Source: Dysidea avara (lineage: Eukaryota > Porifera > Demospongiae > Dictyoceratida > Dysideidae). Taken from it: 64,000 nt of DNA. The position numbers were made by a program, and so were the translations under genes. Where the stretch lies: assembly GCF_963678975.1 (NCBI RefSeq), contig NC_089275.1, positions 17,434,220 to 17,498,219 of the forward strand. Direction: 5' to 3'. This document shows, piece after piece, positions 1 through 64,000 of the stretch (position 1 is its first letter; the number at the start of each line of letters is the position of its first letter). The notes beneath the pieces were generated by a model. That model did not search any database. It was not told the origin of the DNA and saw nothing but the letters and a program-made list of their open reading frames with translations.

Positions 1-2
1 GC

Positions 3-314
3 GGGAATATTCGTACATGCCAGGGATGTAGAGAGAGTCTAAGGCTACCAGATGGAACAATTCCAAATCCGCCGAATGATATTGTAGTGGCTCGTCTTGA
101 AAGAAGACCATACTTTGATCGGAGTAGCGGAGATTGGTGTTTTCCTCGACGAGAAACAAACAGCCATTATCATTTCAAGTTGTCTTGTGTTGTCAAAGCG
201 GACCCTTTGTTTGTACCCAGCACACTGCAGGTACCACCAGATGTAATTGAAGACCTCACCCCTGATCACCTGGAGTTAGTTGCTGCTGAATTTGGCCTCA
301 CTATTAGCAGTTAG
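3..314 (+). CDS. C-terminal fragment of a probable transposon-associated protein
   Basis: An open frame enters from the left edge and stops at TAG 312-314, giving about 103 residues. It starts with a CQGC knuckle, then a proline-rich stretch (IPNPPNDIVVARLERR), a HYHFKLSC motif and an acidic, Leu-rich tail. The spaced Cys and His pairs suggest a small zinc-binding domain. I recognise this layout (CxGCR, DG-I-P-PP, ARxExRxY, HYHxxxSC) as the C-terminus of proteins repeated many times in sponge and cnidarian genomes and probably belonging to mobile elements; that is recall, not a search. The upstream part is outside the window. It could also be a domesticated gene. It lies outside the MULE that follows. 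Confidence 0.5.
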   Translation, partial: GNIRTCQGCRESLRLPDGTIPNPPNDIVVARLERRPYFDRSSGDWCFPRRETNSHYHFKLSCVVKADPLFVPSTLQVPPDVIEDLTPDHLELVAAEFGLTISS

Positions 315-793
315 TAGGGTATATACTGAACTGGTGTATTCTAACAGTTTAACATTTAGTATTTAGCTATTTTATAGGTCTTGTGGTTATATTGCTTTGT
401 AGTTCATTTCAGTTCAATTCCAACTAATAGCGTAGTGTGTGTAAATAGCTACAAACTTATAGCTAATCAGTCTGACGGCAGTGATATGCCCAGGGTGGCA
501 ACTCTACTGACTATTCAGTCCAGCTCTTAACATTTTAGTTTATGTAGATCAGCGTTAGTTTGTATCTCGCCGCCATTAATACTGTTAGCTACAGTGAGAG
601 TATAGATTCGCGTGTAAACATACCGGTATATTTCCTTCGAAATCACCATCAATCACTCTGGCGATCAGTGGAGAATAGCGCCCTGAGTACAAATGATTCC
701 TGTGATTGAAGAGCAGAGTCCACGTCCTGTATCCCTAGCAAGCGCACCTAAATTTATTGTAGTTGGATACGCGCTCCTCAACAATAAAATTCT
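315..793. other. Spacer between partial gene and MULE
   Basis: No supported coding, RNA or repeat signal. It is the 3' flank of the partial gene and the left flank of the MULE. I could not find a convincing 8-11 bp target duplication against the right flank. Confidence 0.4.
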
Positions 794-836
794 GGTCCGG
801 TCCGGTCCGGGCGAATTTTTTTTTTGTACGAGGTTT
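794..836 (+). repeat. Left terminal inverted repeat of the MULE
   Basis: Begins with a threefold GGTCC repeat, then GGGCGAA, ten T and TGTACGAGGTTT. The core from GGGCGAA to GAGGTTT is identical in reverse complement to the right end, while the outer repeat differs by single bases. MULE termini of this kind are where transposase binds. Confidence 0.85.
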
Positions 837-1246
837 TGTAACTTTAATATTTCCATTTAATGGTTTTACGGAAATATCCATAAAGTGAACAGATATCAAT
901 TACTCGACCCTGCACAATCGAACGTAATCATTTTAGTTACACTGTAGACTATACAGCTAGACTCTGTACGTAGTTATGCTTAAGCTTAAACAGTCAGCGC
1001 GTTCACCTTAGGTCATTGAAGGACCCTCCTAGTAATGAATGCTATTTTTAAGACACGCATGCAATTAGCTAGTTAGCTATTCATTGTGTCCCTAGACCTT
1101 AATTGTTCCAAAGTGTCCCAGTGGTTCAAATATAATTGCATGCATTTAAAAAGACACATTGTACATAACTGACTACTACAGCCGTACTGAAATTCCACAA
1201 GACTAACAAGAGTGCAAAAAGTTGGCCACACTGTGATATGATGAGT

Positions 1247-4200
1247 TCACCATTTTCCAGCATTTTGAAGGCCCTTTGAAACATTGACAGAAAAGTTATG
1301 AGGGCGTTTACCCTTGGGCTCTCTTCTTGATGGCATGTTGTAGCGATTAGTGTCATTTTCTTTTCCTCCGGTACAATTCAATTTTAGCGGTCTCCCTGAT
1401 GTAACTGTTCCTTTACCCCTAGGTGTCCCCTTTCGACGGCGACCTGCAGCAGTTGCCTGCACTGGGATTCTATACCCTCTTCTTAACAAACCAGGTTGAA
1501 CAGTCAACTTTTCCCCTGGAGACCATGCAAATTGATGCAATGCAGAAGCAAGCTTCGCAGTGGTACTACTTGCACACATATCTTGATATCTCTTTACAAA
1601 CTTTTCAATTCCTGAGACCATGTTATAATCTTGATCCTTTTGTTGCAGGTGTTTTGTCATGTCTTCCATTACAACTTTTAGCTGTGACAATGTTTCAGAA
1701 TTCTGGTCAACGTCTGCATCTTCTTCAATTTGCATCTCTTCACTGATTTCACACGTGCCATCCTCAACAACAATTGGGATCACAGCACTCTCTTCTTCCT
1801 CGATCTCAGGGAATTGCCTTTTACTATCACAAAAAGTTTTTTCATCAGATGCCTGCGACACAGCTGCATACATTGACAAGTCAGCCTCTGCCTTTTCTCC
1901 TAATGCTATATATGCCATCAGCTTCCTAGATTCAGGGTGCATGGAAGGAATAAAATTTATACTTGACTTATGAAAGTTGATAGCAACTGCTGCCTGGTGA
2001 CTGCATGGAGACCCATCACTTCCTAGAACACAAGTGCAGAACCCCACAGACATATCCACTGTATACACATCGCCAGTATCCCTTGAGCTTACAACCTTAA
2101 ACTGATCATTGTTGTCCGTAGTGTATATGTTTTCCAGCTTAATTTTGCTTGCATTGATACCTTTGAACTTCATAGATACGTAGTGATCAAACCTGCAATG
2201 AGCTATGCTGAGCAGCTTCCTCTGATAGTAAAGTTCTAAAGCATCTGTCACAAAGTGAAACATTTGAATGAGATTGTAGGCTTTGACACGACTAAATATC
2301 AATTCTTTGAGAATTTTCATGCCAGCTTCTGAATAATTGTTGGTGTGATTACCACGAACTGGCAAAGAAACACGAAAGCAAAGAGCCCACTGGTGTCTCT
2401 TGGTCCAAAGAGCTTTCACATAATTGCAAAAGTGGGGGTACTTGGATGCTGTAGTGTGCTTTAACAAATCACTGTAGCTCTCATTTAGTAATAGCTCAGA
2501 TTTGCTATACAAAAGCTTTTTTAGCAAATTAATTAATATCACACGATCTCCCTGAACAATTTTGTTTTTACCATCATATAACCATGTCCATCGTCTCTGC
2601 AAGAAGTGGAATGAGCAAAGTAACAATGTTGAAGAAGGCCATACTGACTGCAAAGCAGCTTGTTCTGCTGCACTGTCATCTGTAAGTATGACGTTAGGTC
2701 CAACACTTGTACCGCTGTTGTAAAATGCATCTTGCGGCCACACCTTTTTTAAATCTGATAAAGCTGAACATAATGTAGATTCCTTTTCATCTGATGTCAA
2801 TGCAATTCCTAAAGGAATGGATCCTCCTGCATGATTAGTTGAAAAAAGAAAGACAGATGTATTGAAGCGATCAAGGCAGGAAGTTGAATCACAGTACATG
2901 ACTTCTGCCGCTTGTGGGAGGTTCTGATGAGCTCTTGTCATCATTGGAGTACAAATGGTAACAATCATTGGCTGAATAGCACATTTACGTCTTTTTGGAG
3001 GCTTGCCAGAATCACTGCAATCACTAATTTCTCCATCATCAGCGGATTCTCCTTTATCATTGGGCTTCATGCTGTCAAAAAACTGTAAAGTTGCTTTCCC
3101 ACCTATTGAATTATATTTTTCATTATATAACCTTATTTCTTCTTCGAGTTTTTCAAACATTGATTTTCCATTCTGTAGTCCCAGTTCTGATTTCCTCCAT
3201 GTATCAAACAATCTGCTTACATCTTGAGGATTAGGATTGACTGATCTATCTGCTAGTGTGGCCTGTGTTGAATCTGGATCTCCCAGCAGTTGTGATTCGT
3301 GATAGTGTCTTGCAGTAGCAGCTGAATGGCCCAGAGCAAACAGTGTGAAGTATGCATCCTTTGTTTCTTGGGATACTGATTTAAAGCTCAAGGTATGAAA
3401 GCATTTGATCGGATGGTTATGCTGAAACAGAAGTTTGACATACAAAGGATGGCTACGCTGTAAGGAAGTAGCCTTGTTGTTTGTTGCAAACAATGTAACA
3501 GAGAGTCTTGAAGGACAATTTGTTGTTTTGTTCCGTAAGGTACTAACCATAGTTGGCTTTTTAGGCTTCTTGCTTTTAGCGCTTAGCTGCTTTGCTGTAA
3601 GTTGTTTTCGATAATGGTGGCAATGCATGTCCAGCTTATACAACACTCTTTTTAAAGATGGATTGTATGTGCGGGTCTTGCGATATGTGCATTGGCTTGA
3701 CTGAAAAAAAGCTGTAATCCAATCATTAAATTCTTCTTTGGAATGCAAGTTAACTCTAAATTCTACATTGAAACACTCCTTAGGTTCACCAGAAAATGCT
3801 TCCTGTGTCAAATCTTCGTACTTCTCGATGACATAAGTGTATGACATATTTGTACTTGTAGATTTTGGTGGAAGAATTGCCTTTAACTCATTATTTAAGT
3901 CATCCCATGTAATAATACAATTAAAACTATCCTCAAATGCAGTTTCGTCAACTAGTTCCATCTTGGGTTCTGTATCAATTGATTTCCTACTTTCATCAAG
4001 TTGTAAAAGCTCAACTGGTTGCACCTCAGGTTCTGTAACAAAGGATTTATTGCCGTCATTGAGTGCTAAGATATTGACTGGTTGCACCTTTGGTTTCATA
4101 AACATTTTACCACTACTGCAAAAAGGATCCTTCTCTTTTAGTGGCAAACAATGATCCTTCTCTCCTAGTCGCACAGAGTCACTTAGTAGCGTGTCACGAG

Positions 4201-7120
4201 TTAACAATAACTTTGTGTTAGCCAACTCATTTGCTATTCTCTGACGAATTCTAGGCATTTCCACCTATAGTGAAGATAAATAATATTACTGTCAGTGATA
4301 TAAACACCACATAAGATAGGACATAGAATTAAAGCACCACTACATTAAAATACTACTGCAGACGACCGCAAAGTATGCATATGCATAGTACAGCCCTTCC
4401 ATAAAGATATGCACCTGAAACATGATAAATTGGATACTTTTGTGCATGATCCTGAATATTAATGTTGATAGGACTGAGACAAATCGTAACAACTTCATTT
4501 CCTGAATGTCCAAACAAAACAAATTATTATGACATGGATATGCTATCTATGGTTGCACTTTAATTAGCATATACTAATATTCATAAAATTACAAAGCTTG
4601 TAGCAATAGCTATGGTGAAAGATCTGTAAAAAGGAATAAGGGAATATGAGAGTGCTTAAATTATCTGTATGATTTCATACCACTATACAAACACCATATT
4701 TTAGCTATGGCATAGTTCATACATAGCCTTGACTTATTATCATAAAAGCTGCCCTCGAATAAGAGCCACTGCTTGTATTTAAATATGCTGGTTGAATTGT
4801 TTGTAATACATGCACATTCAATACTGAATCCAGGAATATATTTAAGTCAGCTATCTGATTAAAACAGCACTTTTATGAGAGTATCTTAGTGTATAAAAGC
4901 ATTTAAGGAATCAGGTCAGTTATTGGAGAGTCCATATAAATGCCCTGGCCTTAGTGCCACACAAGCCCATGGTAGTCTCTTTGAAAAACAGCCACCTTTG
5001 CATAATATCTGGTTAGTTTTCCTAGCTGAAAATCACAATAACCATGGCTACCAAACATGGCAAAATATTCAATGTGTACATCGTACAACATATGTACCTA
5101 GCTATTATTACATTGTACATGTACCTGTGTAAAAGTCATTGGGTAGTCCAGTAAGAGGCATCGGGCATACTGTATAATATGATACGAAACAACATTACTG
5201 TGTCAATGTCTTAATAACAGTAAATCCCTTACTTCTAACAGAAATACTCCACAGTCATACTGATTGTTCTGCTGTGGTATACTCTAATAACATTAAAATG
5301 TATTGTACATTTTCTACCAATATTACGCACACATTTAATCTTACACTCATAGTTTTGCATTGCCAAAGGTCCTTTGAAACAAGCTGCCGTTCATGAAAAA
5401 ACATCCTAATTTTACAAAGCATAGCTCAATCACTAATTAAAGTATTTCACATACTTTAAAGATTCAAAACAACAAGTTTGTTCAGTGTTCAACGAATCAT
5501 AGTATATCATCTTCTTATTGGCTAGTTCTATTGTCTAATTAATAATCAAATACTTTAGCAAAGGTGCCATACTATGATTACTAACCATCATTGTCCAGTG
5601 GCTGTCATTTGAAAAAATAGCAAGCAAATAATCACTCTCCAAAAAGTTTACCTTAAATTTAGCAAAAAAAAACAACAAAAAAACATAGTAAAGCTAGTAA
5701 ATATAAAATTATATCAGTATACGTACCTTTGAGTACCAATTCTGCACACCAGAGTAGCCTGTCTCTAGTAGCTTCTTTGTAAAGAAACAGTTAAGAATAG
5801 TTAAACGTTGGGCACGACTCTGATGAAAAGCAGCTTTTCACAATTATGCTAACATTGTTACTAATTACCAAACCTTCTGAACATGATCTTCTAAAAGCCT
5901 TAGGTAGTCTGATATTACCTACAAAAACAGATACATAAAAAATATTACACTTGCAGAATCAACACTATGTAAGATATCATGAAGTATAGTTTCATGTTTA
6001 CAATACACAATCCCTGAATATCTACAAATCTGAAAATGCTCGTGTGAAAAACTTTCAAGACTTATGTACTTGAAACAACTCACAAATTAATTTTCACTAT
6101 AGTGTAAGCAATCAATTGCTAATCAACTCAATCGTTGGAAAATATATTGAATGCATGTTGTACTATAGTACTGTCTAGAGGTAATGTTACACTTGCGAGC
6201 AGTTGACACTCGTGTAGCCCATTGTCGACCTGTGAATTTCTTTGGCATGTGTGTGTTAGTAACTCACCACATGTAGCCACAAACTCGAGCTCCCTCTGGT
6301 GGTTGCTCCAGTAACCGCATGCCTTCGCATGTGATGATTTCCAGTTTTGTGTCATGTCAAGTCAGGGCCTGGATTTGAGCACTTGTGAGGTATTGTAACA
6401 TTACCACTGGGCGGTACTGTATATAAAACAGTGGGATTTAATGCAATGAAGAAGTGTCGCGGTTTGTTAAGTGTAATAATAACCAGGGTAAATATTCGAC
6501 AAGCAAAATCCTTGAATCCTGTTGCAAGTGTTTTAACCAGCACCGATTCACATACATGCAATGTACATAATGACTTAGCTGTGAAGTGCTAACATTAATT
6601 GTACCTTATCTGAGAGCCACTGGTTTCCAGCAAGACAGTTGTAATATTCATCACCATGTTCTACAGTCAGCTCATACTCTGTACAATCCATATCGGTGAG
6701 GTCAATCACAGCTGACTCCCCTAGAAATGCAGTAAATCCAATTGTTCAATTATATCGGTGAATGCAAGACATTATTGGGACAAGCCTACATCTATACATA
6801 ATACCGTAACCCACCATTAAAAAATGGTATGATTTTATTAATTAGAATTGTTAATACATTGTGGCATATTTTGAGTCGTAATATACAATTAAATCAGTGC
6901 ATGTGTGCTCTATCAGTAAACAATTCAAGCAAGACGGACTAACAGGTACACGATTGAGCCTTTATACAAAGGCTCCATCGAGTCACCCCAACAAATGCAC
7001 ACTTAATTGGCCCAATTCAATTGCTTCTAACCACGATACTGGCAAATACTAAAACGTACTGTAAATAAAATCACACTTCTCACCTGTAGCAGTATCACTA
7101 TGGCCCTCGCTACTTTCCAT
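1247..7120 (-). CDS. Ulp1-like protease fused to MULE transposase with SWIM zinc finger (10 exons)
   Basis: Rebuilt exons on the minus strand, all with GT-AG borders and matching phases: 7120-7084, 6720-6605, 5918-5874, 5774-5727, 5651-5586, 5513-5455, 5405-5345, 5283-5233, 5169-5125 and 4264-1247; about 1181 residues. Exons 1-9 plus the start of exon 10 form a C48 (Ulp1/SENP) domain: the opening QWLSDKVISDYLRLL, His100 in SHWTMM, Asp110 in IYYDSL, Gln149 and Cys155 in QNNQYDCGVFLL, and the closing MPRIRQRIANEL. Gln-to-Cys spacing is six and Asp-to-Cys 45, close to family values; His-to-Asp is only 10 (usually about 17), so one junction may be misplaced or a loop shortened. Exon 10 (own numbering): a Cys/His DNA-binding region around C192, C215, C250 and HNH 282-284; the MULE DDE core with D459, D529, CSFH 550-553 and E646; SWIM finger C743, C745, C754, H756. 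The first ATG (7120) is the only one that keeps the frame into exon 2. Predicted roles: DNA cleavage and integration, plus SUMO-type isopeptide cleavage (inferred from motifs). Confidence 0.8.
6180..6405. mobile_element. Small inverted-repeat insertion in intron 2 of the MULE gene
   Basis: GGTAATGTTACA at 6180 is matched by TGTAACATTACC ending at 6405, enclosing about 200 bp with no intact gene. It lies wholly in the intron between exons 2 and 3, so it is a transposon nested in a transposon. Only the 12 bp ends support it. Confidence 0.4.
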
Positions 7121-7251
7121 CTTTCTATTCCTTGGCACCCCCACAACGCCAGGCAACGACCCACAATAACGCGCCAAACAAATTACGTATTTAAGTAGGC
7201 TTCCGGAAACTCCAGTTTATGTAGCTACTGGTGTACGAAGTTAAAGTGGCC

Positions 7252-7297
7252 AAACCTCGTACAAAAAAAAAATTCGCCCGGTCCGGTCCGTTCCGGG
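7252..7297 (-). repeat. Right terminal inverted repeat of the MULE
   Basis: Reverse complement of the left end: AAACCTCGTACA, ten A, TTCGCCC, then GGTCC-type repeats. It lies about 130 bp upstream of the transposase start codon, so it probably overlaps the promoter, as is usual in MULEs (inference). Confidence 0.85.
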
Positions 7298-9009: not shown

Positions 9010-9511
9010 CAGCGTTGAAACCGGGTCGGGTCAACCGGGTCACATTTTCTCCGGGTCATCCAGGTCTGACCCGGTTTACAAATTATCCGGGTCTGACCCG
9101 GATTGGATCACGTGAGAAACGAAATTGTTCGTTTGACGACGTGGAAACTTAAAAACGCTATTGCGTAGCTCTTTCGTGAGCCACGCCCACTTATCGCGTT
9201 ACTAACATACGCTCAACCACACCCATTAATTAGTAAGTGTAGTATGTAACACGAAACTGAGGGTATCTATGGTGAAGGGTAGCTATTGTAGTAGGTGATG
9301 ACCTTTTTTTTTTTTTTGGTCTTCAACCTACAGCTAGGCTGAAGTTGTAATTCTAAAAGTCTGGATCCGCCCCTGTTTACTCAACACGAATCGAACGCTC
9401 GAGACTAGCCGAAACATAGTTCTTATCGCATGCCTCGACTTTAAGTAATCCGGGTCACATCCGGGTCAGTGGGTCATCCTGGTCAGCAGTAGTGACCCGG
9501 TTTCAATGCTG
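9010..9511. mobile_element. Non-autonomous hAT-like element with 8 bp target duplication
   Basis: Ends are CAGCGTTGAAACCGGGTC and GACCCGGTTTCAATGCTG, which fit the CAGxG...CxCTG termini of hAT elements. TTGTAGAC flanks both sides (9002-9009 and 9512-9519). The interior is full of GACCCGG/CCGGGTC repeats and has no transposase. The paralogous stretch at 21431-21438 has a single TTGTAGAC and no insert, a clear empty site. Confidence 0.85.
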
Positions 9512-12802: not shown

Positions 12803-12984
12803 TGTTATAATGGCTCAATGAAACATTACACATAGTAACCATGTAATTAAGTCGCCTGTTCCTTTTAATGATACATTAATGGTCTAGATCTGTATAGGCT
12901 ACATGTTCAGTGCACAAAATCATAGATATTATATACTACATAGTACAGTATTATTATTGTGTCTATGACATACTGTATACAAGT

Positions 12985-13929: not shown

Positions 13930-14949
13930 GACAAACTCTTTCATGCATTACACAACTCTACAGTATCTATGATAACTCCAAAACAAACATCACAAATATT
14001 TAGAAATTACCAACAACACAATCTGATTGGTGTAACCTGTTTTTGGTAACACACTACAAATTATTGAATGCTAGAGTGACCTTGACCCTTACTCTAGATC
14101 TATGCGAATGGGCGGACGCTGCCAGACTAATTAGCATGTGAGTGTACTAATGGCTACATTAATTTTGATTTATAGTTTTGCATCACTACTGCCTCCACAT
14201 TCATTACTGCTATAATTGATCATGTGCACTGGCATCTCGATGTTTAGACAAACTAGCTATCATTTTCAGCTGCGGGTAAAGTGTAAGCATAAGCTTTAAG
14301 TAGGCCTTTGATTATACTTGTAGTGACAGGTGGCTGATGAAAAATGACTACTCACACACATCAAAACTGATGAGGTGGCCGATGAGAAACTAGCAATCTG
14401 GCCTAATGGCATAATTGTTGCCCTTTATTATTGTTATGCCAGCCAACACCTGTTGAGGTAGGTAGGGGCAAATCCAAGATTTCACATACTAACAGGGACA
14501 AAACTTTATGATGCATGGGGCTCAGAAATGAAGTATATAGCTAGCTGGTTGACATGCATAAGTAACATAATTAGTCCAGCCTGCAAGTACACTAAGCACG
14601 CTGGGCCAGTGGAAATGGAAGCAAAATATGGAATATGGAAATCCTCACTATACACGTATGCTACCTTACTTAGTAGCCACCTCTTTATGACCATCTTGCT
14701 ACAAAGACCAGACTGAGTTTACAAAGGCCACATGTTGAGTGTGTCGAGTTTACTTAGATCCTAGTCATGGCCTCATAATAAGACCATCCTATTGTTTTAC
14801 TCAAACATATTATACATGATTTGACCATTTCCATTTTACTATTGGTTTTACCAGTATACATTGCATATCATGGCGTGCAGTACTATAATATAAATATTGT
14901 CTAGTTTTGAAGTGAGCACATAAAATTCCAAGGCAGTTCTGGAAAGAAA

Positions 14950-16238
14950 ATGTCTGCTACACCTGAAGCAAAAAAGAAGAAGACAGACTATAGTTCGCCA
15001 AGATTTGGTAGCAAGGTAGCAATAGTCACTGGAGGAGCTTCAGGGATTGGATTAGCAACAGTAGAACGACTGGCTCAAGAAGGAGCAAGTGTTGCTATCT
15101 TTGATATCGACAAGTCAGCAGGAGAGAAAGTATGAGTATGGCAAATGTATTAGTTGTGTATACATGTGTACAGAGTCTCTATTGTAGTTAGTAGATCCCA
15201 TGTCTTAAACCTCAGGGTTTCATTTAATTAAAAATCTTGAAAATCGTCATTGATGCTTATTTATTATGCTCAAAATTATTGGCATAATCCTAGGTTTGAT
15301 CTTAAGAAGGAGCATTCTTGTATTAGAAAATACATTACATGTCAGCTTGTTTAATGGTATTATTGTTCTCCATCCATCCATATTTACTTACGTATTTAGT
15401 GACATACACTAAATAATTGAGTGCTGTTTGGTATAACTCTAAGACCGTAATATTAAACTATCTTTACTTGTAAAAAGTACAGCTATTAGCCAACCTTGTT
15501 GATAAAAATTAACTAATAATATTACTAGCTAAGTTTTCTCCATCTCTGTAGGCTGTTGAAGAGTTTAGTTTACAAGGAATGAATGTGACCTTTTATGAGG
15601 TGGATATTTCAGACAAGGATCAATGTGTAGCAGCAGTGAAGAAAGTTGCAGATAATAACAATGGGCTTGTACACTTCCTGGTCAACAGTGCTGCATTCTT
15701 TTCCTTCAAAGGAATCACAACAGATAAGGAAGACTGGGATAACTCTTTTGGTGTAAACGTAGTCGGTTTTGCTAACATGGTACAGGCTTGCTATCCATAC
15801 ATGAAAGAGATGAAAGGAGTTGATAAGTCAGTGGTAAATATTTCCAGTGCTGCAGCTCACCGATCTTTAAAAGATCGTTGGGCATATTCAGCTAGCAAGG
15901 GTGCCATTATAAGTATTACAAAGTGTATGGCTTTGGATCTATCTATTGATGGCATAAGAGTAAATTCCATCAGCCCTGGCTGGGTGTGGACACCAATAGT
16001 GATGAAACTTGCTGCTGAAGATGGAGGTAGAGAAAAATGGGAGCCAATATGTGCAAATTATCATATGCTGAGAAGATTCTGTGAGGCGAGTGAAGTAGCC
16101 AGTGCCATCTGCTTCCTACTCAGTCAAGATGCCTCTTACATCACGGGTACAGATTTGCCAGTTGATGGTGGCTTCACATCTATGAGTCCTGAAGGATGTG
16201 GAGAGAGTATTGTTAGTCTGAGTCTAGCTAATAAATAG
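14950..16238 (+). CDS. Classical short-chain dehydrogenase/reductase, paralog A
   Basis: Two exons, 14950-15129 and 15552-16238, with a 422 bp phase-0 GT-AG intron; 288 residues. The cofactor motif TGGASGIG is at 27-34, and an Asp just after the second strand (IFDID, residue 52) favours NAD(H) over NADP(H). The NNAG-like motif is NSAA (105-108). The active-site set is Asn129, Ser159, Tyr172 and Lys176 (YSASK). SPGWVWTP and TGTDLPVDGG close the fold. The substrate cannot be read from sequence. The first 20 residues are Lys-rich with no signal peptide, so it is probably cytosolic. The C-terminus differs from paralogs C-E: their FAGSNY end is replaced by IVSLSLANK. AATAAA at 16348-16353 may be the polyadenylation signal. 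Almost identical to paralog B. Confidence 0.9.
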
Positions 16239-16749
16239 ATTATTAGAACCACGGTAACTTAGGTTTGTTATAAGTATTTCATTAATAATATAGTACATGT
16301 GTGCATGTTCAAGATAGTCTGTAGTAAATACTGTAACAGCATGTAATAATAAACAGTAATAATTGTGCAGTTCTTCGATAGTTATATGTGCTAGTGGCAA
16401 CCAGAACTTTCATAATGCTTCAATTTAGAAAAAATCATGTATATATTCCTTCATATTTTGGGTGTTGTGAACTTACTACTGTGCTATAGCTTTCTGTGTT
16501 GCTAAAATGGCTATAATGAGTTTGCTTGACTGTTTTGTTCCTTGAGACATGTACGATTTAGTTCAGGATTCATGGTCAATTTTAATGCAACTGCTCCTTT
16601 TGAAAACAGAAATGCGTACATGTATACAGTACTGCATACATGCATGCATGTACAGTAACGCATGACGTATCCTAGCTTATAGAGCAATAAATGAACTCAC
16701 AATATTATGACTGGTGGGTACAATATTTCCGCTAATAAAGTGGCAAACC

Positions 16750-16817
16750 ATTTGATGGTGTGGAGGCTAGGTCGTTGCATGGGTTATGGTCTAAACCATG
16801 CAAACACCACCAAATAG
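16750..16817. repeat. Hairpin module, family P
   Basis: TTTGATGGTGTGGAGG, then TTGCATGGGTT and its partner TAAACCATGCAA form an imperfect stem. Found at the same distance downstream of SDR B (about 32765-32820), so it was duplicated together with the gene. Confidence 0.5.
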
Positions 16818-27610: not shown

Positions 27611-29288
27611 ATAATTCACAGATGCAATTACACATGAACCTGAAATTTTGCTCATTTGTAGCACTGCTTGGCCACTAAAAATTTTCAAAATGTTTTCATT
27701 GAAATGCTTAGCACATTCAATCCATACATTTCCTATGGGGAAGCCATATTGTGCACTATATATTACAGCCCTTTCCCAGCCAAACATGCACACATGTCTG
27801 TTGTTGACAATTTTACTGTCACCACTTTAGATATAATCATCTGGTTGGCTGAAGTGTTAATTCTCTGGCTCTTGAGAAAAGTCCGCTTTTGATTATTAGC
27901 TGTTCATGCAGTTCAACTTGTAATCAGCTCCTCCACCTAAAACTGGCTTCACATTTATTTAAATGGGCATTGTTTTATTTAATGGGCCACTTTATTGCAG
28001 TAATATATATTACTTATGCTCAGAATCGCATTAGTGGCACTGTAATGCTATAGTATGCTCCTTGCATAGTAGCTACATATTATTATCTGTTCCACTTAAG
28101 GTAGCTATAGCTAGTTGCTCACAGCAGTTCTAAATAATGCTAAAGTACAGTACATTCAACTTATTTACAATTGTCCTGTCCATTGGTCACGTGCACATTT
28201 ACTTGGACAGCAGACAGTTACTATGGTTACTACTCACACTACACTGTAAAAAATGAACAATAATTATAAATGCAGTAACTAAAGTTTGTTACATGGTGGG
28301 AGATTCACAAGTATATATATGCACTGTTATAACCTCCCCTGTCCTAACATCATGATCACACAATGTTCCTCTTCTAGGCCACTCCAAATAAATGTTACTG
28401 TAAATGTATGCTCGCTTGGTTCTCATCCACTATAGTTGAGTTTGCTGAGATTACTTTCAGGTTAATTGTTACCGGCTATGAAGATTACAGATAGCAAGCC
28501 TTCTAAAAGGTATATTTTGCTGCCTTCATTGAGCTGAAAGACACATAACTAGTCTTCTTAGCCTCAAAATTGTGTGTGTAGTGTCACATTATAGAGTTCT
28601 ACATAGATGAGATTACAACTGATTTAAAATCAAACACATATTCCATGCGCAATCACATTGTTCTCCCTCTCTATTTACACACAAACATTTCTTACATACC
28701 TATTACATCATGTACTATAATTACACGCATGCATCTCACACATGGCCTATTACATGATTTACTATAATTACAAAATCACAGTACATAAATGTGACCGGGC
28801 CTGCGAAAACAGGACATGTGGGCACAAACTGCACCCCATTACTCTACAGATCATATCGCAGTAGTGGAACAGAATATTTGTATTCTATAACTTACATCAT
28901 AATGCCAATTAAATGCTTACTAAGAGCTGAAAGTTGCGCAAAAGTATGTACTCTTTTATTAAGTATGTACTAGCTGTTCCAAGTAAACCTTCCCAGTCAT
29001 GATAATGTTTATTATTTGCATCCCTTAGGGCGCTATATATATATGAAGGCAGTGGATACTGAACAGAAAGTCAGTTCAATAAGCCGTACTGGCTATTGAA
29101 CTGACTTCACTAGCCACTTCCGAACAATTGACATAGCTAGCTAGTCATTTTTTTAGTTCCCATGACAAAAAAGACATGATCACATGTTGTAATGGTTAAA
29201 TGAAACAACTGAGTCGCCTGTTTACTTTATTCCTTTTACTGATACATTAATGGTCTACATGTTCAGTGTACATATACCAGTTCCGTTT

Positions 29289-29754: not shown

Positions 29755-30990
29755 GAAGTTGGCGTCTCGATTCAAGGGGATGGCACTTTAATATACCCTG
29801 TACTCTGATCTTCATCCTCGGTCAAAGTGAAAGTCAAAAGTCAAGCTAGAATTTTGCAGCTGGTCAAAGAATAAGCATGATTTGTAAGGTGTAAAAGAGC
29901 ATCCTATTGGCGACTACAAGCAACCTCAAACATATCACATCTTCACAAAACTTCATGACAAACTCTTTCATGCATTATGTAGCTTTTACAGTATCTAAGG
30001 TAACTCCAAAACGAACATCGCAAATATTAATTTTAGTCATTACCAACAACACAATCTGATTGGTGTGACCTGTTTTTGTGAATGGACGGGTGCCGCCACA
30101 CTAATTTGCATGCGAGTGGGCGGTCCATTTCCACTGTAAGATTGGCAGCTTTTCAAGCCAAATTTTCCTGGCTAAACTATTAGCTACATTTTTTTTTGAT
30201 TTATAGTTTTGCATCACCGCTGCCTCCACATTCATTACTGCTATAATTGATCATGTGCACTGGCATCTCGATGTTTAGACAAACTAGCCATCATTTTCAG
30301 CTACGGGTAAAGTGTAAGCATAAGCTTTAAGTAGGCCTTTGATTATACTTGTAGTGACAGGTGGCTGATGAAAAATGACCACCCACACACATCAAAGCTG
30401 AGGAGGTGGCTGATAAGAAACTAGCTAGCAATCTGGCCTAATGGTTATTGCCATTTATTATTGTTATGCCAGCCAACACCTGTTGAGGTAGGTAGGGGAA
30501 AATCCAAGATTTCACATACTAACAGGGACAAAGCTTTATGATGCATGGGGCTCAAAAATGAGGTGTATAGCTAGTTGGTTGACATGCATAAGTAACATAA
30601 CTAGTCTTGTATGCAAGTACACTAAGCATGTTGGACCATTGGAAAGAATGGAAATGGAAGCAAAACATGGAAAATGGAAATAATCTTCATTATACATGTA
30701 TGATACCTTACTTTGTAGCCACCTCTTTATGACCATCTTGCTACAAAGACCAGACTGAGTTTACAAAGGCCACATGTATGAGTGTGTTGAATTTACTTAG
30801 ATCCTAGTCATGGCCTCATAATAAGACCATCCTATTGTTTTACTTGAGCATATACTTGATTTGACCTTTTCCATTTTACTATTGATTTTACCACTATACA
30901 TTGCATATCATGGTGTCAGTACTATAGTATAAATATTGTCTAGTTTTGGATTGAACACATAAAATTCCAAGGCAGTTCTGGAAAGAAAAA

Positions 30991-32266
30991 ATGTCTGCTA
31001 CACCTGAAGCAAAAAAGAAGAAGACAGACTATAGTTCACCAAGATTTGGTGGCAAGGTAGCAATAGTCACTGGAGGAGCTTCGGGGATTGGATTAGCAAC
31101 AGTAGAACAACTGGCTCAAGAAGGAACAAGCGTTGCTATCTTTGATATCGACAAGTCAGCAGGAGAGAAAGTATGAGTATGGCAAATGTATTAGTTGTGT
31201 ATACATGTGTACAGAGTCTCTATTGTAGTTAGTAGATCTCATGTCTTAAACCTCTGGGTTTCATTTAATTAAAAATCTTGAAAATTGTCATTGATGCTTA
31301 TTTCTTATGCTCAAAATTATTGGCACAATCCTAGGTTTGATCTTAAGAAGGAGCATTCTTGTATCAGAAATACATTACATGTCAGCTTGCTTAATGGTAT
31401 TATTGTTCTCCATCCATCCATATTTACTTACGTATTTTTTAGAAATCTTAGTGAAATACACTAAATAATTGAGTGCTGTTTGGTATAACTCTAAGATCAT
31501 AATATTAAACTATTTTTACTTGTAAAAAGTACGGCTATTAGCTAACCTTGTTGATAAAAATTAACTAATGATATTACTAGCTAAGTTTTCTCCATCTCTG
31601 TAGGCTGTTGAAGAGTTTAGTTTACAAGGAATGAATGTGACCTTTTATGAGGTGGATATTTCAGACAAGGATCAATGTGTAGCAGCAGTGAAGAAAGTTG
31701 CAGATAATAACAATGGGCTTGTACACTTCCTGGTCAACAGTGCTGCATTCTTTTCCTTCAAAGGAATCACAACAGATAAGGAAGACTGGGATAACTCTTT
31801 TGGTGTAAACGTAGTCGGCTTTGCTAACATGGTACAGGCTTGCTATCCATACATGAAAGAGATGAAAGGAGTTGATAAGTCAGTGGTAAATATTTCCAGT
31901 GCTGCAGCTCACCGATCATTAAAAGATCGTTGGGCATATTCAGCTAGCAAGGGTGCCATTATAAGTATTACAAAGTGTATGGCTTTGGATCTATCTATTG
32001 ATGGCATAAGAGTAAATTCCATCAGCCCTGGCTGGGTGTGGACACCAATAGTGATGAAACTTGCTGCTGAAGATGGAGGTAGAGAAAAATGGGAGCCAAT
32101 ATGTGCAAACTATCATATGCTGAGAAGATTCTGTGAGGCGAGTGAAGTAGCCAGTGCCATCTGCTTCCTACTCAGTCAAGATGCTTCTTACATCACGGGT
32201 ACAGATTTGCCAGTTGATGGTGGCTTCACATCTATGAGTCCTGAAGGATATGGAGAGAGTATATAG
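30991..32266 (+). CDS. Classical short-chain dehydrogenase/reductase, paralog B
   Basis: Exons 30991-31170 and 31604-32266, with a 433 bp phase-0 intron highly similar to that of paralog A; 280 residues. All SDR motifs are intact: TGGASGIG, FDID acidic residue, VN in GVNVVG, catalytic Ser, YSASK and the VDGG close. Against A it differs at three exon-1 residues (Gly for Ser, Gln for Arg, Thr for Ala) and is identical in exon 2 until the last residues. There it stops early at GYGESI: the nucleotides that encode FAGSNY in paralogs C-E are still visible behind the TAG but out of use. AATAAA at 32393-32398. Function as for A; the C-terminal loss may affect tetramer contacts (inference). Confidence 0.9.
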
Positions 32267-33079
32267 TTTTGCTGAGTCCAGCTATTAGCTAAATAGATTA
32301 TTAGAACCACGGTGATTTTTAGGTTTGTTATAAGTATTTCATTAACAATGTAGTACATGTGTGCATGTTCTGTAGTAAATACAGCATGTAATAATAAACA
32401 GCAATAATTGTGCAGTTCTTCGATAGTTATTTGTGCTAGTGGCAACCATGCAGAACTTTCATTGTGCTTCAATTTAGAAAGAATCGTGTATATATTCCTT
32501 CATATTTTGGGTGTTGTGAACTACTGTGCTATAGCTTCCTATATGTTAGCTATAATGAGTTTGTTTACTGTTTCATTCCTTGAGACATGTACGATTCAGT
32601 TCAGAATTCATGAACAATTTTATTACAACTGCTCCTTTTAAAAACAGAAATGCATGCGTACAGTAATGCATAATGTATCCTAGCTTATACAGCAATAAAT
32701 TATAATATATGAACTCACAATTACTGGTGGCTACATTATTTTGCGCTAATAATGCGGCAAACCGTTTGATGGTGTGGAGGCTAGGTTGTTGCATGGGTTT
32801 TTGCCTAAACCATGCATCCCTCCTTTACTACTTGATTTGATACACATACATATATACACCAAAATATTTCGTAGATTTGAATTTAGTTACTCAGTACGTG
32901 GACAGGCAGATTATAAAGGGGACCATCCCAAAAATTTATATAGCTAGCTACATGCACAAATTTACTAGTTATATTCAAGTTTGCTAAAAATGGATTTCCA
33001 TGCAAGATAGGGAGATTGCATGTTCCAATCACCGAATGTATAGGGAAAGTATTGAATTTATGGATGAGTAGGGTACATG

Positions 33080-46300: not shown

Positions 46301-47910
46301 AAACTTTTAAACATGAATTTTACTTGTTGAAACCTTACCTGTAAAGTTAAGCACCTGAAAACTAACCTCAAAATGTGTTGCTCTAATTATAAACAGAGTA
46401 ACAGTATTATTGATATTGTATGGTAATGAACGTTAGGACACAGTTTACTAGTGTTGTATGTTCTGTTGCATTATAGACTGTGATCACTGTGCCAATGCCA
46501 CACTGCTAGTGTACTGGCACATACAGTACCACTCAAATTCAACGTTGTCTCACGATAGTGCAAGCTATTGGAAAAACTTGCTAGCTAAAGGGTGTGGCAC
46601 TTGTTTCATTTGTGAGTATTCATCCCAAACAAAAATGGGACGAATACTCTCAAGCTAAACAAGTACCACGCCCTTTAGTTAGCAAGTGTTTTAATCACTT
46701 GCACTCTCGCTAAATGACGTTGCATTTGAGCAGTACTGTATCAGAGCATGTACTCCAGTATGTTTGTATGTACATAGTGTGTAGACATCACCACACCACT
46801 AATGTACTGCCATTTACTTAGTTCCAGTGGCCTCTAGTGTGTACTGTATTTTTCATGATTTAGGATCATATACTTATTGTGCTGGCCTTCACCATCTTGT
46901 TTGATTTCTGATACCAGTTAAACTCCCTTGCCTGTGTATCATTTCTGCCGCCACATACACTGCTCTGAATACTGGCTGTGGTACTGTTTGTACATGCCCT
47001 ATGGGTAGGTTAATTGTCATGGTGTATGTATTTCGTTGTTGTTGTGACCCAGTTCTAGTAAAGACAATAAGTTAATGATGCTGATATAATCTTGAACAGG
47101 AAATAAATGTAAAGACACGAGTAACGAAAAAGCTCATTGTAAATGTAACTTAGCTGCATAACATATTATATAAGTAATAGTATTTGAAATTCCGTAGCCA
47201 TGTCATTTTTGTGTTTTCTGTGTTTGCAGGCTGTTAAAGAATTTACTTCACAAGGACTGAATGTGACTTTCCATGAGGTAGATGTTGTAGACAAGGAACA
47301 GTGTATAGCAGCAGTGAAGAAAGTAGCAGACGCTAACAATGGAATTGTCCACTTGCTAGTAAATGGTGCAGTCTACTTTGGTTGTAAAGCTCTCGATGCA
47401 GAGAAAAAGGATTGGGACAAGACTTTTACTGTCAACGTGGTTGGCTATGCTAACATGGTACAGGCTTGTTATCCATACATGAAAGAGATGAAAGGAGTTG
47501 ATAAGGCTGTGGTGAATATTGCCAGCACTGCAGCTCACCGACCACAGCCAAACCGTTGGACATACTCAGCTAGCAAAGGTGCAATCGTAACAATGACCAA
47601 GTGTATGGCTTTGGATCTATCTATTGATGGAATAAGAGTGAACTCCGTCTGCCCTGCCTGGGTGTGGTCGCCAGAAGTTGCCAAAGCTGCTGGGGAAGGA
47701 GGTAGAGAGAAATGGGAGCCAATCTGGGGGAATTTTCATATGCCAAGAAGATTCTGTGAAATGAGTGAAGTAGCCAGTGCCATTTGCTTCCTACTCAGTC
47801 AAGATGCCTCTTACATCACGGGTACAGATTTGCCAGTTGATGGTGGCTACATGACAATGAGTCCTGAAGGATTCGGGGAGAAGTCTAGTTTTGCTGGTTC
47901 TAACTACTAA
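43314..47910 (+). CDS. Short-chain dehydrogenase/reductase, paralog C, with altered cofactor loop
   Basis: Exons 43314-43493 and 47230-47910, same phase-0 intron position as the paralogs but 3736 bp long; 286 residues. I chose ATG 43314 because it aligns with MSATPEAK of paralogs A and B; the frame upstream has only GTG. The cofactor motif reads TGGASGIC: the last glycine of TGxxxGxG is Cys, followed by LTT instead of LAT. The rest of the site is kept: FDIN after strand two (Asn follows the Asp), NGA for NNAG, catalytic Ser in NIAST, YSASK, and TGTDLPVDGG. The C-terminus is GFGEKSSFAGSNY, shared with D (one difference) and E. The intron carries two family-A repeats, three foldbacks and other inserts. 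Replacing that glycine should hinder pyrophosphate binding, so activity is doubtful. Confidence 0.85.
43880..44663 (+). mobile_element. Dispersed repeat family A, copy 3, ending in a hairpin
   Basis: CAACTACGTAACTGATGCCT, GGCTATGGGCTTGATTTCTT, GACATCGCTTCATCCTGACA, TCCTTTGTGTTCCAG and GAATAGGGATCAGA lines match the other copies. At 44037-44070 ACCCATCATGGAGG pairs with CCTCCATGATGGGT. At 44471-44663 GGAAGGTTGCCTATATACCT pairs with the TGTAGACAACCTTCC arm. Located in the intron of SDR C. Confidence 0.65.
45085..45478. mobile_element. 394 bp foldback with perfect 9 bp target duplication
   Basis: TAGTCTCGCGTAGCCAGACC at the left pairs with GTCTGGCTACGCGGGACTA at the right, and the arms continue inward (ACATAGTATAGCATC, GGGCTA, GCGCAGCTTCC) almost to the centre. 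CCTTCGTAA occurs at 45076-45084 and 45479-45487. A 9 bp duplication is typical of MULE-type transposition, so the MULE machinery may have moved it (inference). Confidence 0.85.
45871..46156. repeat. 286 bp hairpin within family A copy 4
   Basis: GTACACAGAAAAATTTGGAA pairs with TTCCAAATTTTTCTGTGTAC, and the arms continue through AACTAGAGTAGGGACTATAG and TACTGAAACAAGCTGGAGTA for about 125 bp each. Confidence 0.85.
46510..46755. mobile_element. Foldback element, arms about 120 bp
   Basis: The arms meet at TCCCAAACAAAAATGGGA. Paired blocks: GAGTATTCATCCC/GGGACGAATACTC, ACTTGCTAGCTAAAGGGTGT/CGCCCTTTAGTTAGCAAGT, ATAGTGCAAG/CTTGCACTCT and CTCAAATTCAACG/CGTTGCATTTGAG. The arms are diverged, so this is older than the 45085 element. 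Target duplication not resolved. Confidence 0.7.
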
Positions 47911-49478: not shown

Positions 49479-52256
49479 TCAGTAGTTAGATCCTGCAAAA
49501 TTGGACTTCTCCCCAAATCCTTCAGGACTCATAGACAGGTAGCCACCATCAACTGGCAAATCTGTACCCGTGATGAAAGAGGCATCTTGACTGAGTAGGA
49601 AGCAAATGGCACTGGCTACTTCACTTGTCTCACAGAATCTTCTCAGCATATGAAAATTCCCCCAAATTGGCTCCCATTTCTCTCTACCTCCTTCCCCAGC
49701 AGCTTTGGCTACTTCTGGTGTCCATGTCCAGCCAGGGCTGATGGAATTCACTCTTATTCCATTAACAGACAGATCCAAAGCCATACATTTAGTCATTGTC
49801 AGGATGGCACCTTTACTAGCAGAATACGTCCAGTGTTCTGGCTGCACTCGATGGCCTGAGACACTAGCAATATTCACCACTGACTTATCAACTCCTTTCA
49901 TCTCTTTCATGTATGAATAACAAGCCTGTACCATGTTAGCAAAACCAACTACGTTGACACTAAATGTTTTGTGCCAGTCTTCTTTCTTTGCTGTAAGTCC
50001 TTTAGAGCCAAAGTATGCAGCACAGTTGACCAGGAAGTGTACAAAGCCATTGTTAACATCTGCTACCTTCTTCACTGCTGCAACACACTTCTCCTTGTCT
50101 GAAATGTCCACCTCATAGAAAGTGACCTGAAATCCCTGTGAGGTTAAGTCTTTAGCAATCTACAAAAGTAAGTAGAAGTATATAACGGAATCCCAAGTAT
50201 TCAAATACTGTAGAGTCTGATTATTAGCCACAAACGTTTAATAAAAACTTATTAGCAAAATTTTATTATTAACATATAACTATTTGCTAAGCAATAAGAA
50301 ACTTGATCGTGAGTGTCAGTGAGTATTCGTGGACATGGATTCTTTTGAGTGGTGTAACCATGGAGTCTAGTTCCAGGACCTGTGGAAATCTATCATGTGA
50401 AACAAGACAGTCTTCTGCATGAAGCATGCAGAATACTGTATATTACTTGGTAATTAAGCATACTGAAATCCACATTAGTATTGGCCATGTACCACATGAA
50501 ATTTTGAGCTTTGTAAAGTTAACAGGTCTCTAGAATTTCTTCTCCTGTATAGATGCACATTGCGTTGGAGCTTTGTGTTCATCCACATGTGCTTATCAAC
50601 CATGATTAAATACAAGAAGCGAGTATGCACTTAAATATTATGTGATTAATATATGCATGCACTTAGAAACCAGATTCTACGGTACCAATTTTTACACTGA
50701 ATACCAGATGATTGTTCTGTTAGAGTGTTTTATTACAGTATTTCAATTAAAAGGTATTATGTGGTGTAAGGTCGTTTTGCACATATGTATAGTTACACAC
50801 TTCTCGGTTAGCTATCTGAACAACAGGTGTTTATATAACTGATGAGGTTTCATTGTAAACCCTTTTACAATTGAGTATATTCTGTATCAACAACATTTTA
50901 GATGAAAATGATGGATGGGTAAAAATCTGTAATATTAGCAGGTGCTTTTGGCATTCAATGGCAGAACATTATTCATTCTTCATATTTCAAGGGAATGAAG
51001 GGATAGGAAACCTCCAGCAGTAATGCATTACCAATCAGACAGCACTGTAACTCTTGCCACATGCTATAACAGCAGAGCATTACCAGAAAGTTCTGTTCAA
51101 ATAATACAATATAATTATTATACAGGTACTGTATCACAAATTGCCATGTGCTAACATTGTGCACTAGTTCAAAAATGTGCATCACTGATGCTCTGTATGA
51201 TGAGGCACAGTCACGTTCAAACTCCTGCATGTAGACAACACCAGTACATCTGCTATTTAATAAAACTGCATGCACATATTCATGCGCATACATTCATGTG
51301 AATTATTAAGAACTTAATAAACCACAACATGCAGCTACAGCACCCAACACAATAACACAGAATATTATTACCTAAAAAATCACCTTAGAGACCTAAAATC
51401 ATAAGAAAATTCCAAACTTGATGTAGGGTGCAAGCGGGCGAGTTGTTACCATTATCCATAGTACTTGCCACAATATAGCCAGCTGGACTTATTTTCATAC
51501 CTCTATACTCTCTAGGGCTTGATACCTGTACTCTCTGCATAACAGACAATTTGCTAACTTAGTTAACTCAACATAGCTAGTTTGGCAACTATCCCCTTCC
51601 TTTGTCACGTGATCAGCTCCACTCGAGGATCAACTTCTTACTTTGCACTAATCTTTCTCACTTTCTTTGCTACAATGCACAGTGTATAGCTACTGTATGA
51701 GTGTGGCAATCTTGTAAACTGAACTGCACATCCTCAATAATTACACATGCATTGGTTAATCAGATGAAATAATGGGAAAATATGCATGGCAGTAAAAATA
51801 CATGCAGACGCTGATGAAAAATAGGAAATCACTAAATAATGGTCTAAGCTAAAAGGCATTCTATAATGATGGTATATATAGTGAGTCCGAGCATAGATAA
51901 TATTATATTATCTATGGTCTGAGTACAGTATATATAGCTGTTATGTGGTAGGACTACAGTCCCACAGTTTTATTATTAATAAGGCTTTACAGCACAAGTG
52001 CTGAAAATCTGTAGGATACCTGGTCCTACAGCCTGTTTATAAGTTAGCTACACTATACTATAATCCATCAACTTACTTTCTCTCCAGCTGACTGGTTGAT
52101 ATCAAAGATGTTAACGTTGGCTCCTTCCTGTGCCAGTCGTTCTACAGTTGCTTGACCAATCCCTGAAGCTCCTCCAGTAACTATGGCCACCTTGCCATCA
52201 AACCTCTGCGTAGTTTGGTCTGTCCGTTTCCTCTTTGATTCAGGACTTGCAGACAT
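49479..52256 (-). CDS. Short-chain dehydrogenase/reductase, paralog D
   Basis: Exon 1 is 52256-52077 with a consensus donor GTAAGT, exon 2 is 50159-49479; the phase-0 intron is 1917 bp; 286 residues. I chose ATG 52256 (MSASPESKRKR) by alignment with the paralogs, although the frame is open for 36 more codons upstream. TGGASGIGQAT, IFDIN, NCAA, SVNVVG, NIASVS with catalytic Ser, YSASK, SPGWTWTPE and TGTDLPVDGG are all present, so it looks functional as an NAD(P)-dependent oxidoreductase of unknown substrate. C-terminus GFGEKSNFAGSNY. Closest to E: both have DLTSQGFQVTFY at the start of exon 2, and their introns share sequence beyond the splice site. Confidence 0.9.
51967..52040 (-). mobile_element. 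LINE-like 3' end fragment in intron of SDR D
   Basis: TTTTATTATTAATAAGGCTT, ACAGCACAAGTGCTG and AGGATACCTGGTCCTACAGC match 26455-26545. On the minus strand it ends in an AT-rich tail, so it lies in the same sense as the host gene, just 3' of the exon 1 donor. Confidence 0.55.
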
Positions 52257-60776: not shown

Positions 60777-61457
60777 TCAGTAGTTAGATCCAGCAAAGCT
60801 GGACTTCTCCCCAAATCCTTCAGGACTCATTGTCATGTAGCCACCATCAACTGGCAAATCTGTACCCGTGATGTAAGACGCATCTTGACTGAGTAGGAAG
60901 CAGATGGCACTGGCTACTTCACTTGTCTCACATAGTCTTCTCAGCATATGAAAATTCCCCCAGATTGGCTCCCATTTCTCTCTACCTCCTTCCCCAGCAG
61001 CTTTAGCGACTTCTGGAGACCACACCCAGGCAGGGCTGATGGAATTCACTCTTATTCCATCAATAGATAGATCCAAAGCCATACACTTCGTCATTGTCAG
61101 GATGGCACCCTTACCAGCAGAATATGTCCAGCGATTTGGCTGCGCTCGATGGCCTGAGATACTAGCAATATTCACCACCGACTTATCAACTCCTTTCATC
61201 TCTTTCATGTATGGATAACAAGCCTGTACCATGTTAGCATAACCAACTACATTGACACTAAAAGTTTTGTGCCAGTCTTCTTTCTCTGCTGTAAGTCCCT
61301 TAGAGCCAAAATAAACTGCACAGTTGACCAGGAAGTGTACAAGGCCATTGTTAACATCTGTTACCTTCTTCACTGCTGCCACACACTTCTCCTTGTCTGA
61401 AACATCTACTTGATAAAAAGTGACCTGAAATCCCTGTGAGGTCAAGTCTTTAGTAAC
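60777..61457 (-). CDS. Short-chain dehydrogenase/reductase, paralog E, last exon
   Basis: The exon spans 61457-60777, 226 codons plus stop, opened by a TTTGTAG acceptor at the same phase-0 position as in the paralogs (VTKDLTSQGFQVTFYQ). It carries NCAV, SVNVVG, NIASIS with the catalytic Ser, SPAWVWSPE, TGTDLPVDGG and the GFGEKSSFAGSNY end. The active-site motif is YSAGK: Tyr and Lys are kept, the usual Ser before Lys is Gly. No exon 1 was found between 61458 and the right edge, so it is expected further right, given introns of 0.4-3.7 kb in the paralogs. Sequence at 61720-61900 matches the intron of D, supporting an inverted-region duplication of a whole gene. Confidence 0.85.
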   Translation of the reverse strand, partial: VTKDLTSQGFQVTFYQVDVSDKEKCVAAVKKVTDVNNGLVHFLVNCAVYFGSKGLTAEKEDWHKTFSVNVVGYANMVQACYPYMKEMKGVDKSVVNIASISGHRAQPNRWTYSAGKGAILTMTKCMALDLSIDGIRVNSISPAWVWSPEVAKAAGEGGREKWEPIWGNFHMLRRLCETSEVASAICFLLSQDASYITGTDLPVDGGYMTMSPEGFGEKSSFAGSNY

Positions 61458-62695: not shown

Positions 62696-63696
62696 GGGTG
62701 TAGGAACAGGGGGGGCCACAGGGGCCAGGGCCCCCCTAGTCTGTGGCCATGGATAGATAGAACAGGCCAGGGCCCCTCCAGTTTGCAGCAGGAATCATTT
62801 TTACAGTAATGCACCATGTGAAACGTAATAATTATAGATCATTGGCCTACCTGGACGTTGATAACCTATGTTCCTTTCTCACCGATTAAAATGTTGATCC
62901 TGGTTTATTTGAAATAATATTAGAGGCGCTTAAAGTGATAATAAGCTATGTCACCTCACGTGTAATTCGTGTTAGAAAATAATTAAAGAACTGTGCAGCT
63001 GCAGAGAGTTAACTTATGTCTCAGTCTCACTACCAGAAAACTCTGTCAGAATTAATTCGTAGTCGTGGTAGACCTATTTCAAAGAGTCCAGTTAGTGAAG
63101 GAGCTTCTAGCAGTTCCAGAGCGGTTCTAGCGGAGCGGGTAGTTTGTTCTAGCCCTGGCTCCCTAATAATGAACCTTTGATGGAGGAAGCTGAATCAGAG
63201 CATCCCACTTCCCAGAAGACTACGGATCTGCGAAGTAACGCAGAATGTAGCTAATACTCAGGGGGGAAGACGTTAATTCATTAATTCATCCCGCATAGCT
63301 ACAAGTAATTTATAACTTCTGGGGGGTATATATAACAACATGAAATTAGTTCAAGTAACAGCCTCTTATTAATTGTGTTTTGTGATGATCATATCATCAG
63401 TCCTGTCACGTCATTAACATGCATGGTAGCTATACAAGGTTGCTATAAGATTACTTATCTAGCATAACTGTGATTATGATTATTGGCTAAAATTGCCTCC
63501 AGATTCAACCTCATAGCACCTATTTTTCAAAATTTCCCTGGGGGGGGCATGCCCCCAGACCCCCCTAGAAGGAGAGCATGCTCTGAATGCGCTTCACGCA
63601 CTGTGCATGTACCCACAAGTAGCTACACCCTCCTCCGCCACTGCTTTAGTTACCAATAGTGGCCCCCCTATAGTTTTTTGCTTTGCTACGCCCCTG
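62696..63696. mobile_element. hAT-like element, about 1 kb, with 8 bp target duplication
   Basis: TTATGCAT lies directly outside both ends (62688-62695 and 63697-63704). The left end is GGGTGTAGGAACAGGGGGGG, the right end CTTTGCTACGCCCCTG; GGGGGGCCAC / GTGGCCCCCC follow inward. The interior has a GGGCATGCCCCCAGACC block near 63550 and one short open frame. It inserted beside, or into, the end of another repeat family (CTATCAATGTTAAGCTCCAC, also seen at 27291). Confidence 0.75.
63016..63180 (+). pseudogene. Possible N-terminal remnant of a hAT transposase
   Basis: 54 codons from ATG to TGA: MSQSHYQKTLSELIRSRGRP, then a Ser-rich stretch. Within the hAT-like element this is where a transposase N-terminus would lie, and the start (short, basic, with TL) is reminiscent of BED/TTF-type hAT proteins. 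Too short to be sure; no DDE domain follows. Confidence 0.3.
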
Positions 63697-63704
63697 TTAT
63701 GCAT

Positions 63705-63960
63705 CTATCAATGTTAAGCTCCACTACCCCAGTACGGGCAACGTCAGGCTTTGAAGTTTAAAATGTGGAGAATTTGAACAAGTGGTTAAAAGTTCCTACT
63801 TGAGACATGTTAAGCCCCGTGTCAAATCCCTTCTTATCCTTGTGTCAGGTGTGGGTATTTGACATAACAATTTATCCCCAGGTTGGAGAATTTGACTTTC
63901 AAACTGTCACAACCTCCCCATACAGGTGCATTATGAACTTTTGACTCAAATATTACACAA
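63705..63960. mobile_element. Diverged relative of the 27289 element
   Basis: CTATCAATGTTAAGCTCCAC resembles the left end of 27289-27610 (CTATCAATATTATGCCCCAC), followed by GAGAATTTGAC/GTCAAATCCC phrases, and CAGGTGCATTATGAACTTTT toward the right end. Its outer left end was displaced by the hAT-like insertion. Confidence 0.5.
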
Positions 63961-64000
63961 AAATTCAATGGAATATCATTGCCAGTCACGCTATAAAGCA

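Follow-up and report, generated by a model that had tools for sequence, protein, structure and literature searches.

Does a Mutator-like element (MULE) of the sponge Dysidea avara make a SUMO protease and a transposase as one protein, and what would such a protease do for the element? The question is raised by a locus at the left end of a 64,000-nucleotide stretch of contig NC_089275.1 (hereafter the window, to which all positions refer). With moderate confidence, we read this locus as a complete and probably autonomous Mutator-like transposon with one gene, coding for a SENP/Ulp1-type SUMO protease on the N-terminus of a MULE transposase, and with local removal of SUMO aiding transposition.

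The gene model and its protease domain

The gene runs on the minus strand from 7120 to 1247, where ten exons give a frame of 1203 codons in which the terminal stop is the only one. All nine introns have GT-AG borders and lengths within 49–860 nt, six of them measuring 49–75 nt and the others 363, 686 and 860 nt. The first nine exons are small (37, 116, 45, 93, 66, 80, 61, 51 and 45 nt, in order) and exon 10 is 3018 nt long. Nine small exons with GT-AG borders joined in frame to a large one is the arrangement that an earlier inspection of the letters (the sequence-only reading) had proposed, and it held, with a predicted product of 1203 aa. The span given there, 1247–7120, takes in the exons but misses the termini of the element, which extends over about 809–7279.

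As an independent test of the splicing, human SENP5 was aligned to the raw minus strand of 7300–4000 by a protein-to-genome Smith-Waterman procedure allowing GT-AG introns in all phases. The spliced alignment scored 230. Dinucleotide-shuffled versions, 40 in all, reached 71 at best, and the highest score among 35 control stretches was 89; these controls were the two strands of 17 tiles from 7301–63417 and the opposite strand of the 7300–4000 stretch (positions 1–3999 and 63418–64000 were left out, and the tile scoring 89 was not looked into). The alignment spans the whole SENP5 stretch up to the final residue (178), 65 of 172 aligned residues being identical, and seven of its eight introns agree with the hand-made model at both borders. 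The exception is the third intron, whose donor, set by the gene model at the end of exon 3 (5874–5918), falls 9 nt earlier in the alignment. The donor of exon 2 (6605–6720) was confirmed, and the alignment also supports the model for exons 4 (5727–5819), 7 (5345–5405) and 9 (5125–5169); exons 5 (5586–5651), 6 (5455–5534) and 8 (5233–5283) are further backed by alignment with SENP proteins, and exon 10 (1247–4264) by the helix scan described below. Exon 1 (7084–7120), which carries the start codon, and the first intron (7083–6721) are the weakest-supported part of the model, as this exon lies outside the C48 protease domain and the spliced alignment ends before reaching it.

The C48 domain begins with the WLSD motif in exon 2, takes up exons 3–9 and closes in exon 10, whose first 19–20 residues (4264 to about 4208) form its last helix, ahead of the MULE transposase. 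The spliced alignment crosses the 860-nt intron into this transposase exon and ends at 4208. When read-through of intron 9 was put in place of the transposase-exon residues, phmmer scores fell from 119.9 to 99.6 bits for SENP5 and from 97.4 to 87.0 bits for SENP1 (6nnq). Of 127,888 six-frame windows covering all 64 kb, the one at 4264 is the top match to the C-terminal helix of SENP5 (47, next 31), and the same window ranks first for that of SENP1 (35, next 29; 127,882 windows). Since the domain spans the last splice junction, an unfused protease would be incomplete. Sequence support for a protease-transposase fusion is strong, and the proposal that the protease is the N-terminal part of the MULE transposase protein is borne out by a single splice-compatible frame in which C48 continues into exon 10. 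It could also be that one transcription unit gives two products, a protease made from exons 1–9 that terminates within intron 9, plus a transposase started from its own ATG at 4258. That ATG does lie six bases into exon 10, and read-through of intron 9 reaches a stop after eight residues, but the last helix, which the first codons of exon 10 specify, would be missing from such a protease, and we consider this arrangement very unlikely.

Agreeing with the sequence-only reading, Pfam finds Peptidase_C48 (PF02902) at residues 46–211 (E=9.1e-27, 94.7 bits, cut-off 20.7, profile positions 1–208 of 217), and the motifs QWLSDKVI, HW and YYDSL on which that reading had relied are all present, with Gln171 six residues ahead of Cys177. 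The closest solved relatives (phmmer against the PDB) are SENP5 (1.1e-33), SENP1, SENP2 and SENP3, followed by Ulp1 proteases. His115 (5600–5598, exon 5), Asp132 (5498–5496, exon 6), Gln171 (5271–5269) and the nucleophile Cys177 (5253–5251, both exon 8) line up with the residues of SENP1 and SENP5 that we take to be catalytic. The element is 37.6% identical to SENP5 (173 aligned residues) and 33.7% identical to SENP1 (178 aligned residues), with the same catalytic residues in each case; what sets it apart from both is that only its C48 domain is joined to a transposase. Among positions identical in SENP1 and SENP5, 46 of 72 are kept, including the His, Asp, Gln and Cys and the Trp of WLSD and of HW, these tryptophans presumably having a role in the SUMO tunnel. 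At the other 105 positions (four of them gaps in SENP5), the element equals SENP1 or SENP5 in 32.

To take the protease as acting on SUMO appears reasonable because its nearest solved relatives are these four SENPs. The N-terminal VIDLT (6709–6695, exon 2), which resembles a SUMO-interacting motif (SIM), would add to this reading. It stands ahead of the protease, has acidic residues after it and occurs once in the protein; shuffling the protein 2000 times produced the pattern [VI][VI]DLT in 6 cases. VIDLT is also the SIM core of PIAS1 (PMC4907222, PMC3901395).

Ends of the element and the transposase

Terminal inverted repeats (TIRs) lie outside the gene at 809–847 (left, outer edge ambiguous within 808–811) and 7241–7279 (right, outer edge ambiguous within 7277–7280), pairing as 61-nt arms that are 84% complementary. 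The ends are 91% identical over 45–46 bp, a stretch that includes part of the flanking repeat; counted over 40 positions, 36 match from 809 and 37 from 808. An 18-mer of the TIR has two occurrences in the window, one at either end of the element, where 0.12 are expected with up to 3 mismatches. Directly outside, the target-site duplication GGTCCGGTCC at 799–808 has an exact copy at 7280–7289, and its register (8, 9 or 10 bp) stays ambiguous in a target that consists of a GGTCC repeat. MULE target duplications are 8–11 bp long, often 9, and the TIRs with their 8–10 bp duplication fit what defines the ends of a MULE. These same ends bear on the view that the locus is no transposon and is instead a host gene, a SENP-MULE fusion that has been domesticated. 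An intact frame present as a single copy in the window is what such a gene would look like, but well-matched TIRs and a target duplication bracket exactly this gene, and we give domestication hardly any credence.

As the sequence-only reading had foreseen, the MULE transposase domain (PF10551) is found by Pfam in the same protein as C48, at 2597–2869 on the minus strand (residues 664–754, E=1.5e-9, 38.6 bits, cut-off 27.6). That reading had described a one-exon MULE transposase with a SWIM finger and called both active sites intact, which stands in part. The SWIM-like zinc finger (1979–2065, minus strand) is a CxC...CxH pattern recognized by eye that reaches 14.9–17.8 bits, below the Pfam cut-off of 19.6. 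The protease site has its aligned His-Asp-Gln-Cys, and the transposase triad is a candidate judged by eye only, made up of two Asp, a C..H motif and a candidate Glu (NNYSEAGMK). A candidate WRKY-GCM1-type finger N-terminal to the core (C...C...HNH) was likewise picked out by eye, and Pfam matched no zinc-finger family to it up to E 10. The RNaseH-like model of ZSWIM1-3 scored 18.1 bits, under its cut-off of 27.2, and comparison of the transposase with the PDB by sequence gave nothing convincing (best E 0.64). AlphaFold2 was run without an alignment on 406 residues of the transposase core; the resulting model had a mean pLDDT (predicted local distance difference test) of 31.1 and was not used.

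Three sub-threshold matches, to a PI-PfuI endonuclease subdomain (E 0.15), the Borrelia REV protein (E 0.0014, 19 bits with a cut-off of 27) and DUF4286 (E 0.29), were set aside as chance. Zisupton/KDZ elements are associated with Ulp1, for which reason membership in this group was considered; the MULE profile match speaks against it, and no paper pairing Zisupton/KDZ with Ulp1 was among the 20 best-ranked literature matches. Within exon 10, the coding sequence between C48 and MULE holds a repeat, an 85-bp stretch recurring 63 bp further on (3948–4032 and 4011–4095, 72% alike).

Origin and possible role of the protease

The sequence-only reading had treated a protease-transposase MULE in an animal as a novelty against a plant background. 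This contrast falls because Ulp1 had already been reported in Mutator elements of hydra and lancelet in 2010 (PMC2836005, citing Repbase reports), as had the Ulp1 of Ginger1. A figure legend in PMC2836005 describes an Ulp1 alignment that includes 'Mutator TPases'. As cited in PMC2836005, the Hydra and Branchiostoma elements (MuDR-type) are likewise animal Mutator elements with an Ulp1/C48 domain. Ginger1 of Hydra resembles our element in being an animal cut-and-paste transposon with Ulp1 fused to the transposase, but differs in its integrase-type transposase, its CCGG- or CCGT-specific target duplications and the C-terminal position of Ulp1; Ginger1 transposases carry either Ulp1 or OTU there, and the authors proposed that Ulp1 acts in transposition, on DNA repair (PMC2836005). 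Plant KI-MULEs, VANDALs and other ULP1-bearing MULEs share the combination of MULE and ULP domain. Unlike in the sponge element, however, the ULP of KI-MULEs, which are non-TIR, is one of three coding genes and is oriented opposite to mudrA, and that of some VANDALs sits on VANC. Grapevine CACTA and MULE families with ULP1 have been described as well (PMC2528002), and the Ulp1 domain is strongly conserved in eudicots (PMC13317346). The N-terminal position, the nine introns, the domain running across the last junction and VIDLT may be particular to the element described here. No sponge case of an Ulp1-transposase was found in the open-licence literature searched; 'Ulp1' is absent from the main text of PMC6446971, PMC13359780 and PMC12062965, and 'Ulp' from PMC10027918.

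The protease was probably captured, introns included, from a host SENP gene, because all nine introns lie in or beside the protease and none in the transposase. Capture as such leaves room for a mere passenger, a host SENP segment transduplicated and joined in frame that is of no use in transposition. An intron-rich protease next to an intronless transposase does resemble captured genomic DNA, and host gene fragments are often captured by MULEs, where captured genes usually decay (PMC13317346, PMC2528002). This alternative keeps some probability because one copy gives no measure of selection, and no relatives that would show selection on the protease were found among viral and bacterial/archaeal contigs. 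There, 0 of 2 (viral) and 0 of 11 (bacterial/archaeal) pattern stretches were confirmed as transposase relatives, and 0 of 3 (viral) and 0 of 16 (bacterial/archaeal) as relatives of the protease part; these single-protein queries reach close relatives only, and in collections of this kind absence says little. Against a passenger, however, stands a domain that is complete between WLSD and its final helix, keeps all four catalytic residues and is free of stops, as well as the recurrence of Ulp1 with Mutator, Ginger1 and CACTA, transposons unrelated to one another, beyond what random capture would lead one to expect and for a reason still unsettled. On these grounds we think a passenger rather unlikely.

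We return to the reading of a Mutator-like transposon whose protease would assist its movement. With the two domains in one frame, we infer a course of events concerning SUMO, binding and transposition: the transposase would bind the inverted repeats and bring the protease there, VIDLT would help to retain SUMO-conjugated proteins, and the protease could strip SUMO locally, its substrates being either silencing factors that sit on the donor copy or target, or the transposase and repair factors once cutting has taken place. As a result, repression of transposition would ease or its repair improve. The likeliest use seems to be to lift SUMO-dependent silencing or control at the element, the nearest functional hint being that VANDALs whose VANC carries Ulp1 trigger hypomethylation of related copies (PMC13317346). 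More tentatively, we suggest as a possibility a lineage of MULEs with a transposase in which a SIM-bearing, catalytically active SENP forms an obligate N-terminal part, stripping SUMO from host silencing or repair proteins at the element's own ends; if so, every transposition would bring its own counter-silencing enzyme.

Several observations weigh against the favoured reading. The SUMO specificity of the protease would follow from homology, and 26 of the 72 positions common to SENP1 and SENP5 are altered in the element. The looser SIM pattern hhDL[TS] appeared in 81 of 2000 shuffles, and a C-terminal acid-flanked SIM candidate (residue 1026; two overlapping matches, 0.77 expected) was discarded as not clearly above chance. 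A duplication within the GGTCC repeat makes a chance exact match easier. From the stop codon to the left end the sequence has no AATAAA; ATTAAA is present twice, near 861 and 848. The window yields a single copy, as neither tblastn nor blastn gave a second one with E values of 1 or below, and a review continues to list what Ulp1 does in plant MULEs as unknown (PMC13317346). At the same time, with the protease's catalytic residues whole, its transposase frame unbroken and its splice junctions and ends defined, the element would make a clean test case for deSUMOylation in transposition, as a single cysteine change would separate protease from transposase.

Neighbouring features in the window

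Elsewhere in the window, six long open frames were tested, and five of them fall in the short-chain dehydrogenase family (adh_short_C2, E 2.2e-43 to 1.1e-49): 15579–16235, 31631–32263 and 47200–47907 on the plus strand, and 49482–50111 and 60780–61445 on the minus strand. Their DNA is 81–91% alike in pairwise comparison, forming a local gene cluster on both strands, and an upstream exon is likely because the profile matches begin at positions 36–50. Two of these frames lie inside a 2.7-kb repeat (14146–16802 and 30176–32816, 91% identity, about 16 kb apart), and a 204-bp piece at 12984 recurs at 29288 (97.5% alike). At the left edge of the window, the end of an open frame (3–311, plus strand) that runs off the edge contains, as judged by eye, CQGCRESLRLPDG; it has no Pfam match up to E 1. 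Two CCGGGTC/GACCCGG-rich stretches about 400 bp apart (about 9026–9118 and 9450–9505, also by eye) may mark the two termini of a further small mobile element.

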